A stretch of 64,000 bases of DNA from an uncultured Clostridia bacterium (GTDB lineage Bacteria; Bacillota; Clostridia; Oscillospirales; Ruminococcaceae). Position numbers and translations under genes: made by a program. The first letter of the stretch is position 1. Every line of letters starts with the position of its first letter. The notes below the pieces were generated by a model. It searched no databases and had not been told where the DNA came from. It saw only the letters and a list, made by a program, of their open reading frames with translations. The stretch spans positions 124,001 through 188,000 of the forward strand of contig CANRKB010000001.1 of NCBI GenBank assembly GCA_947631115.1, given 5' to 3'. Below are positions 6,777-59,104 of the stretch, one piece after another.

Positions 6777-6931
6777 CAGACTGTATATAAAGCCCCATCT
6801 ACTTTGTATGGTTATCCGCTGAAGGCGGATAACACGGTTACTGCAACAGCCACAAATGCTAGTTGCAGTAACGCTTCAGCGTTGTACGCGAAGCGTTCAA
6901 TGCGTGTATCTGGGGCTTTCTATACAGTCTG
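6777..6931. repeat. Intergenic structured repeat, family A copy 1 (TIR CAGACTGTATAtAAAGCCCCA)
   Basis: 21-bp terminal inverted repeats with 1 mismatch enclosing three hairpins; homologous to 46607..46766 and 56445..56549. Confidence 0.9.
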
Positions 6932-6970
6932 AAAGTTGACTTTTTATACAGTCGATTCTTAGTTTAAATC

Positions 6971-21389: not shown

Positions 21390-21508
21390 TAACAAAATGC
21401 TGATTATATATAAGATCCGACTACAGTCCGAGTTATATCATAATTTTTCGGTTATGAAAAATATCTTCACAAAAACTATTTTTAATGCATATAATAAAAT
21501 GTTACAGC

Positions 21509-21592
21509 ACAACTGAGCAGGCGGCGAAAGTCACTTTTCGCGCAGTCGGGTCGCAAAAGGCGGCAGTGGGAAAATCGCCCGCGGGACAGAAA
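21509..21592 (+). ncRNA. NiCo (czcD-type) riboswitch aptamer
   Basis: AACTGAGCAGGC-[GCGAAA..TTTCGC]-GCAGTCGG-[GTCGCaaaagGCGGC]-A-[GTGGG..CCCGC]-GGGACAG matches the known consensus order; lies immediately upstream of a CDF transporter. Confidence 0.88.
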
Positions 21593-21610: not shown

Positions 21611-21639
21611 GTATGATGCCGTTTTTTGGGGAGGTAATA

Positions 21640-46606: not shown

Positions 46607-46766
46607 CAGACTGTATAGAAAGCCCCATCTGCGGCGTAGCGTTATCCGCCGAAGGCGAATAATGCGGCGGCTTACTGCGGCAGGCACAAAGCCTAGCCGC
46701 AGCACCGCTTCAGCGTTGTACGCGAAGCGTTCAACGCGTGCATACTGGGGCTTTCTATACAGTCTG
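46607..46766. repeat. Intergenic structured repeat, family A copy 2
   Basis: CAGACTGTATAGAAAGCCCCA...TGGGGCTTTCTATACAGTCTG, perfect 21-bp TIR, starting directly after the nifU stop codon. Confidence 0.93.
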
Positions 46767-56444: not shown

Positions 56445-56549
56445 CAGGCTGTAGAGAAAGCCCCAGATACTAGGAAGCGTGACTGCGGCTAGGCTTTGTG
56501 CCTGCCGCAGTTGCGCTGACGAAGTAGATGGGGCTTTATATACAGCCTG
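56445..56549. repeat. Intergenic structured repeat, family A copy 3 (short form, inverted core)
   Basis: CAGGCTGTAGAGAAAGCCCCA...TGGGGCTTTATATACAGCCTG; core is reverse complement of copy 2 core GCGGCAGGCACAAAGCCTAGCCGC. Confidence 0.9.
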
Positions 56550-56581: not shown

Positions 56582-59104
56582 ATGATGAAACGTCTGACAA
56601 TCAGCATGGCGGCTCACGTTGACGCGGGCAAGACTACTCTTTCCGAAGCGCTTTTGTTCTACGCGGGCGAGATAAGAAAGCGCGGGAGAGTCGACAACGG
56701 CGACGCGTTTCTTGACACCAACTCGCAGGAGCGCGAAAGAGGAATAACCATTTTTTCTAAACAGGCGGTTTTAAGGCTTGGCGACGCGGAGTTTACGCTT
56801 TTGGACACGCCCGGACACGCCGATTTTGCGGCGGACGCGGAGAGAGCGTTTGCGGCGTCGGATTGCGCGGTGCTTGTGATAAGCGGCATTGACGGAGTTC
56901 AGAGCAGGACTCGGACTATAATGAGCCTTTTGGAAAGAGCCGAGCTTCCCGTGTTTACTTTCGTAAACAAAATGGACATTTCGTATAAAAACAAAGAGGA
57001 GCTTATAAAGGAGCTGCGTTCGCTCGACAGGCGCTTTGCAGAATTTTCGAACAATATTTCGGAAACCGCCGCGGAGTATGACGAGGAATGTATGAACAGC
57101 TTTCTCGAAAGCGGAAAAGTTCCCGAAAGCAAAATTGCAAACGCCGTAAGAAACAGGAAAATATTCCCCGTTATGTTCGGTTCGGCGCTTAAAAACGAGG
57201 GCGTAGAACAGTTCGCAAAGCTTCTCGAAAAGTATGCCGAGCCGAAAGAAACTTACGGCGGCTTTGCCGCGCAGGTGTTTAAAATTACTTCGGATAAAAA
57301 CGGCGTAAGAGAAACGCTTTTAAAGATAAACGGCGGCGGGATCCGCGTAAGGCAGGAGCTTGGCGGCGAGAAAATAAGTCAGCTTCGGATATACAGCGGA
57401 GCGAAATTTGCTCCCGCAGAAGAGGCGTTTGCGGGACAGGTCTGCGCCGTTACGGGGCTTTCAAAGACCTACGCGGGGCAGTGTTTCGGCGAGCAGAAGC
57501 CGCCTAAAGAACCGACCGTAAATGCCGCGCTTTGCTGCACGGTGCTTTTCGGAAGGGAAGTAAATATCCCCGACGCATATTCAAAGCTTAAAATTCTCGA
57601 AGAAGAAGACCCCCAGCTTCGGTTTTCTTTTGCGCACGGAGAGATAAACGTCAGCGTTATGGGAGAGATACAGCTCGAAGTGCTGAAAAATATCATAAAG
57701 CAGCGTTTCGGGCTTAACGCGGAGTTCGGTGAGAGCAGGATAACCTGCCTTGAAACAATAACCGCCCCCGTAGAGGGCGTGGGGCATTTCGAGCCGCTAA
57801 GGCATTACGCCGAGGTGCATTTGCTTTTAGAGCCGCTGCCGAGAGGGAGCGGGGTGGTGTTCGCGCGGGATTGCCGAAATCTTGACGAAAACTGGCAAAG
57901 GCTCGTTATGTCCGTCCTTCGCGAAAAAACGCATATCGGCGTTCTTACGGGTTCGCCCATTACGGATATAAAGATAACTTTAAAATCGGGCAAAGCGCAC
58001 TTAAAGCACACCGAGGGCGGCGATTTCCGCGAGGCGGCTTATAGAGCCGTGCGGCAGGGCTTGGCTTCGGCGAGTTCGCAGCTCTTGGAGCCGTTTTACG
58101 AGTTCACTTTGGAGATACCGCAGGCTTCCGTAGGGCGTGCGCTTTCCGATCTGCAGAGAATGGGAGCGGAGTTTTCTTCTCCTCAATCCGCAGGCTCGAC
58201 AGGCTCAAACGCGCTTGTCGAGGGAGTTTGCCCCGTTTCGGAAATGCGGGATTATCAGAGAGAAGTCGCGGGTTACACTCACGGAGAGGGAAGACTTTCG
58301 TGCGTCATAAAGGGCTATCTTCCTTGTCATAACGCCGAAGAAGTTATAGAAAAAACGGGCTATGACTTTAACGCCGATGTTGAGGAAACCGCCGACAGCG
58401 TTTTCTGCTCAAACGGCGCGGGTCATATCGTAAAGTGGGACGAAGCGCCAAGGCATATGCATCTTGCGAGCATTTTCGCAAAGCCGCGCGAGGCGACCGA
58501 AACCGAGATAAACTCCTATAAAGCACGCGCCGCTACGGACAAGGAGCTTATGGAAATTTTCGAGCGCACATATGGGAAAATAAACAAACGTAATGTCGCT
58601 AATGAGCGAACGATAATGCACCGCGACAGGCAGATAGAAAATGCCAAAGAAACAAAAAAGCCGATAAAGCTGAAAGAGTATCTTCTTGTAGACGGCTATA
58701 ACATTATATTCGCGTGGGACGAGCTGAGGGAAATTGCCGCGCGCAATATGGACAGCGCGCGTATGAAACTTATAAATATTATGTGCAATTATCAGGCTTT
58801 TCGGCGCTGCGAGCTTATTCTTGTGTTCGACGCTTATCGCGTAAAGAGCGACAGGGAGATAGAAACAATTGGCGGTATAACCGTTGTTTACACCAAAGAA
58901 GCCGAGACCGCCGACGCGTTTATAGAAAAGACGGCTCACATTCTCGCAAAGGACAGGCGTGTACGTGTAGCTTCCGACGACGGAATTGAACAGGTCATTA
59001 TCGCGGGCGGGGGAGCAGAGCGCGTTTCCGCGGAGATATTAAGACTTGAAACCAAAGAAGTCGAACGGTCGATAAGGGATATACTTGAAGATCTGAACAG
59101 ATGA
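56582..59104 (+). CDS. TetM/EF-G-like ribosomal GTPase fused to C-terminal NYN (YacP/Rae1-like) RNase domain
   Basis: N-term MAAHVDAGKTTLSEAL...RERGITIFSKQ...DTPGHADF...NKMD; C-term (about 58673..59101) EYLLVDGYNIIFAWDEL...LILVFDAYRVK...VYTKEAETADAFIEK...VRVASDDGIEQ. Confidence 0.93.
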   Translation: MMKRLTISMAAHVDAGKTTLSEALLFYAGEIRKRGRVDNGDAFLDTNSQERERGITIFSKQAVLRLGDAEFTLLDTPGHADFAADAERAFAASDCAVLVISGIDGVQSRTRTIMSLLERAELPVFTFVNKMDISYKNKEELIKELRSLDRRFAEFSNNISETAAEYDEECMNSFLESGKVPESKIANAVRNRKIFPVMFGSALKNEGVEQFAKLLEKYAEPKETYGGFAAQVFKITSDKNGVRETLLKINGGGIRVRQELGGEKISQLRIYSGAKFAPAEEAFAGQVCAVTGLSKTYAGQCFGEQKPPKEPTVNAALCCTVLFGREVNIPDAYSKLKILEEEDPQLRFSFAHGEINVSVMGEIQLEVLKNIIKQRFGLNAEFGESRITCLETITAPVEGVGHFEPLRHYAEVHLLLEPLPRGSGVVFARDCRNLDENWQRLVMSVLREKTHIGVLTGSPITDIKITLKSGKAHLKHTEGGDFREAAYRAVRQGLASASSQLLEPFYEFTLEIPQASVGRALSDLQRMGAEFSSPQSAGSTGSNALVEGVCPVSEMRDYQREVAGYTHGEGRLSCVIKGYLPCHNAEEVIEKTGYDFNADVEETADSVFCSNGAGHIVKWDEAPRHMHLASIFAKPREATETEINSYKARAATDKELMEIFERTYGKINKRNVANERTIMHRDRQIENAKETKKPIKLKEYLLVDGYNIIFAWDELREIAARNMDSARMKLINIMCNYQAFRRCELILVFDAYRVKSDREIETIGGITVVYTKEAETADAFIEKTAHILAKDRRVRVASDDGIEQVIIAGGGAERVSAEILRLETKEVERSIRDILEDLNR

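Follow-up and report, generated by a model that had tools for sequence, protein, structure and literature searches.

What kind of element is a 155-bp, three-hairpin repeat that recurs in a genome with its stems altered in a compensatory way, and is its base pairing kept for the sake of an RNA? The question arises from a 64,000-nucleotide stretch of an uncultured Clostridia bacterium (the window, meaning here the whole stretch that was analyzed), in which an initial annotation had described one such repeat and two further copies. The repeat, here termed family A, represents a new family of IS1182-type MITEs, an element of a known kind that stands out by the way it duplicates its targets and by an interior built of hairpin modules. 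In the explanation that we consider very probably correct, it is a non-autonomous MITE that depends for its movement on a trans-acting DDE transposase of the IS1182 family, which recognizes CAGNCTGTANANAAAG-type ends and duplicates whole hairpin targets.

Architecture of the window copies

All three copies are found at the positions, and with the terminal repeats and stems, that had been described. Copy 1 (6777..6931, plus strand), situated between a ddl-like and a DUF1934 gene, is a 155-bp form consisting of a 105-bp core and two hairpin modules, with a left terminal inverted repeat at 6777..6797 (plus) and an inner right one at 6911..6931 (minus). The interior comprises the left module (GTTATCCGC/GCGGATAAC, 6811..6833, plus), which is missing in the 105-bp form, the central hairpin with its ACAAA loop (6841..6868, plus), which is common to all copies, and the right module (CAGCGTTGTACGCGAAGCGTTCAATGCG, 6877..6904, plus), a 28-bp segment that recurs, in three species, within an unrelated family of dispersed repeats (L220 to L232) in which CACTGTACACTG and CCGCGAAGCGG abound. 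Copy 2 (46607..46766, plus), a 160-bp form, begins directly after the point where a NifU-like gene stops. Copy 3 (56445..56549, minus) is the same element on the other strand, in its 105-bp core form, and is enclosed by the terminator-like hairpin arms GCAGGAATT and AATTCCTG. The compensatory stem differences are present in the copies as reported, CTGCAAC/GTTGCAG versus CTGCGGC/GCCGCAG and AGCC/GGCT versus AGGC/GCCT. Copy 3 sits 32 bp upstream of the gene for an 840-aa protein (56582..59104, plus) that combines EF-G/TetM-type GTPase domains with an NYN_YacP domain fused at the C terminus; YacP/Rae1 is a ribonuclease that associates with the ribosome.

Of the two ends assigned to copy 1, the right one had been set too far inward. 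Alignment of the flanks places the true right end about 24 bp further out, at a second, outer terminal repeat (AAAGTTGACTTTTTATACAGTCGA, 6932..6955, plus) that is kept in the orthologues of sister species G005 and G002 and that copies 2 and 3 lack. Most full copies of the family carry these further 24 bp (AAANTNGACTTTTTATACARNCTG), in which the terminal repeat recurs in imperfect form. Once the outer right end is so defined, target duplications become visible.

Copy number and host range

The family is far larger than three copies, as the wider search of the genome and its relatives made clear. About 55 complete copies are dispersed through the 2.06-Mb draft genome, and many others occur in sister species; the copies are not confined to the window. 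The 155-bp query returned 90 scored matches in its own genome (best non-self E = 5e-56), and a 20-bp end motif, allowing at most 3 mismatches, occurs there 154 times as against 6 for its reversed control; together, these counts rule out chance. Among 41 genomes searched, matches were found in 12, including the genome of origin, all within one genus, and none in the 16 other genera tested. Lengths range from 105 to 185 bp and cluster at 105, 129–134, and 153–160 bp, in keeping with a build of one 105-bp core plus optional hairpin modules. Short, multi-copy, bounded by terminal inverted repeats and devoid of a transposase gene, family A has the makeup of a MITE.

Insertion into empty sites

Twenty-nine loci of the genome were compared with their orthologous sites in sister species G002, G005, and G009. 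With one doubly annotated locus removed, 55 locus-by-species comparisons showed an empty site and 15 a filled one, and 17 loci are empty in every sister species tested. The empty sites hold a single copy of the sequence that is duplicated around the element (e.g., AAGTAATT, ATTATCATATT, and ATAAGCAAT), and their occurrence in three sister species proves insertion. Family A, small, palindromic, intergenic, and modular as it is, might otherwise pass for an immobile intergenic repeat of the REP/ERIC type; the empty sites rule out such immobility, and the target duplications and the autonomous partner described below also speak against this reading, which we regard as barely credible. Multiple copies, terminal repeats, target duplications, and empty orthologous sites are all observed in the family. 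The initial annotation's statement that no obvious target-site duplication is visible holds for the three window copies, at which none is clear, and fails for the family at large.

Duplication of short targets and of whole hairpins

Target duplications were assessed at the junctions of 134 copies from ten species, a set in which a few copies readable in both directions are counted twice, leaving the conclusions unchanged. At ordinary sites the duplication measures 5–11 bp, as taken directly from empty sites. Direct repeats scoring at least 6 flank 53 of the 134 copies (versus 1.3% of shuffled flank pairs), those scoring at least 8 flank 27 (versus 0.2%), and those scoring at least 12 flank 18, as compared with 0 of 532 shuffled flank pairs. 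The long duplications are complete terminator hairpins of 18–34 bp that abut both element ends, exemplified by the stem-loops GAACTCCTGCAGAAACAATCCGCAGGAGTTT in L019, TAACAGCCTAAAGGCTGTTT in L053, and AATCGGGGCTT...AAGCCCCGATT in L070. A hairpin with arms of at least 7 bp is flush with an element edge in 42 of these 134 insertions, whereas among control segments the share is 1%; family A thereby shares with IS1182-associated elements the trait of inserting at palindromes or hairpins. A sister MITE family of about 243 bp, family B (CAGACTGTATATAAAGCCTAATCAG ... AGGTTTTTATACAAGCTG), has similar ends and likewise lies between duplicated whole terminators of about 26–28 bp; its loci include L021 3154..3396, L049 1507..1749, L062, L063, and L066, among others.

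Could these elements instead have inserted between terminators that already stood in tandem, such that the flanking hairpins are no target duplications at all? The clean empty sites display short target duplications only, and neither for the hairpin-duplicating insertions L053, L055, L070, and L041 nor for L034 was an empty site recovered, because the flanks have diverged or been rearranged. Yet the flanking hairpins are identical over up to 34 bp and flush with both ends, and a like pattern recurs at independent loci, in several species, and around insertion sequences themselves, which makes pre-existing tandem terminators quite improbable. Around L107 in G002, a terminator hairpin has been duplicated, and its two copies are set apart by changes that pair with each other (AGGGTTTCC/GGAAACCCT in one, AGGATTTCC/GGAAATCCT in the other), from which it follows that the duplicated target also undergoes compensatory change.

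A candidate partner transposase of the IS1182 family

A transposase element whose ends match, of the kind that the initial annotation had suggested looking for, exists in sister species G053 of the same genus. There, a 1551-bp element (L160) encodes an intact 477-aa protein that scores 379 bits against NF033551 (cut-off 270) and contains the domains DDE_Tnp_1, DDE_Tnp_1_6, and DUF772. Its ends are CAGTCTGTATATAAACCCC and CAGCTTGTCCAAAAACCCC; at best, 14 of 15 terminal bases are identical between its right end and the left end of the MITE, an imperfect match by which family A nevertheless shares its ends with an IS1182 element. An identical 34-bp hairpin, AAGGGGAAAACTTTTTTCAAAAAGTTTTCCCCTT, stands on each side of L160. 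The same genome carries about 40 family A matches, one of which (L341) has a terminator duplicated in like fashion, and IS1182 elements between duplicated hairpins were also found in G020 of the same genus (L131) and in G037 of another genus (L130). A transposase element that matches family A in its ends and likewise duplicates a hairpin is thus observed in the genus, and together with family A in a single genome, that of G053.

Neither the draft genome of origin nor four relatives rich in the MITE (G002, G005, G008, and G009) yielded an IS1182-family transposase; insertion sequences are often lost from draft assemblies. PF01609 transposases were likewise absent from the genome of origin, and matches in its relatives led to IS1182. 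IS1634/IS1549 elements, with their long variable repeats, had been suspected as the partner and were rejected, as those elements whose ends do match are scored as members of IS1182. Judging by its termini, family A is presumably mobilized by the IS1182 transposase of the G053 type.

Origin of the covariation

The idea that base pairing is maintained beyond recent duplication was evaluated with 31 distinct 105-bp copies and a consensus structure, which is 96.5% paired across the set. Double changes occur in 16 of 37 pairs, compared with 8.5 in shuffles and at most 6 in slid controls, and the covariation score is 0.241, compared with 0.104 and at most 0.060, respectively. The excess that the initial annotation predicted therefore exists, and this strong covariation would suit a structured regulatory RNA or 3′ UTR element whose base pairing is under selection. 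Such a reading also draws on compensatory differences between orthologous copies: the two differences that separate L038 from its G009 orthologue pair with each other (2 of 2 compensatory), and among the three that separate copy 1 from its G005 orthologue, two are paired (2 of 3). These double changes are found in no other copy examined and hence were not imported by conversion from any of those; part of the covariation is true double change in place. Shared copies are, furthermore, better preserved than their surroundings. In seven shared copies of equal length, 10 of 961 sites differ (1.0%); the 120 bp on either side differ at 107 of 1668 sites (6.4%; Fisher p = 2e-12), a sum from which the copy at L023 10026, with its swapped interior (16 and 18 of 105), was excluded.

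Several observations nonetheless point away from RNA. Imperfect pairs in the central stem are G.T and A.C about equally (7 and 6), and relative to neighboring tandem genes 16 copies have the same and 23 the opposite orientation; neither the strand-specific tolerance of wobble pairs nor the fixed gene orientation of an RNA element is seen, and these two results favor a process at the level of DNA. Rfam gave no match for family A. In addition, most insertions are species-specific, and interior modules appear and vanish at one and the same site: the copy 1 insertion is 155 bp in its own genome and in G005 and 105 bp in G002, L044 is 105 bp in its own genome and 157 bp in G005, and L035 is 105 bp in its own genome and 134 bp in G009. 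An RNA-level function of family A is not supported, and we consider a structured RNA unlikely. The earlier interpretation, selection on an RNA or cruciform fold beyond mere duplication, survives in that the pairing does exceed duplication, both in the 16 of 37 pairs and in the orthologues, and in that a cause at the DNA or hairpin level fits better; its RNA alternative is unlikely. In the window, Rfam returned only a tRNA and a NiCo riboswitch (21504..21591, plus, 58.3 bits), downstream of which an ORF starts at 21613.

For the covariation itself, and compatibly with the MITE, a further possibility is that palindromy is kept without selection, through template switching between hairpin arms and gene conversion between copies. 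The copy at L023 10026 and its G002 and G009 orthologues share ends and central hairpin and differ in both stem arms together, a block-wise compensatory pattern; three pairs (at columns 44, 45, and 49) always switch together, contributing a haplotype component to the signal; and modules change in place. Some of the covariation thus stems from copies trading blocks. On the other hand, the double changes of L038 and copy 1, unmatched in the copies examined, did not come from those, and the roughly six-fold slower evolution of shared copies than of their flanks, to which constraint, slow mutation, or exchange could contribute, is left unaccounted for by such processes alone. As an explanation of the covariation, we give them somewhat less than an even chance.

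Proposed course of insertion

In transposition by a DDE enzyme, each 3′ end of the element is joined to a different strand of the target, and the spacing of the two joints sets the target duplication. Family A inserts between genes and there generates duplications of 5–11 bp. A stem-loop target, as a rule a transcription terminator, would probably be a cruciform or hairpin at the moment of cutting, and both strands would apparently be joined at the hairpin feet; repair would therefore copy the entire hairpin to both sides. After insertion, hairpin modules come and go and stem arms are swapped, probably by exchange between copies, with gene conversion the likely driver of module turnover. Modules may be exchanged with unrelated repeats as well as between copies of the family. 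Modules nested inside the hairpin modules of one element are seen at L022 1562..1743 and L043 1612..1765.

Relation to known elements and significance

The BOX, RUP, and SPRITE repeats of pneumococcus use transposases different from the candidate partner of family A. They, too, are short intergenic palindromes that insert into each other (PMC3049150, PMC10969869), although in a different host, and the likeness is one of description. MITEPye1 of Paracoccus yeei, as presented in the available part of its report (PMC11578231), is likewise an intergenic MITE that its ends place with IS1182, and it forms long stem-loops; unlike family A, it has 4-bp target duplications and 1–3 chromosomal copies per genome, and neither hairpin targeting nor a modular interior is among the features that this part reports.

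With the IS1272 type of the IS1182 family (NF033551), family A has in common the transposase family of its candidate partner and the choice of hairpins or terminators as targets. IS1272 and TnSha1, however, are reported to remove the hairpin at which they insert, with no duplication of the target (PMC4923244, PMC5678879), whereas family A duplicates the hairpin whole, and hairpin replacement of the IS1272 type is not what its insertions display. Hairpin replacement was observed in PMC4923244 and in the 2017 study of IS1272, in which duplication of the whole hairpin was only proposed, as pathway b (PMC5678879). The hairpin cases of family A fit this pathway, a link suggested by the anatomy of the insertions. 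In IS1272L, PMC5678879 describes one end as present twice in tandem, over 25 bp, an arrangement that the 24-bp outer repeat of family A resembles. A literature search, with subscription journals and ISfinder outside its range, returned no report of whole-hairpin duplication by IS1182 elements beyond that model.

Family A thus offers many natural examples of whole-hairpin duplication, by insertion sequences as well as by the MITE that goes with them, for which the short target duplications within the same family serve as an internal control. It shows how an element can duplicate a terminator and carry the copies apart, and its hairpins change rapidly enough for compensatory change to be followed from one orthologous copy to another.
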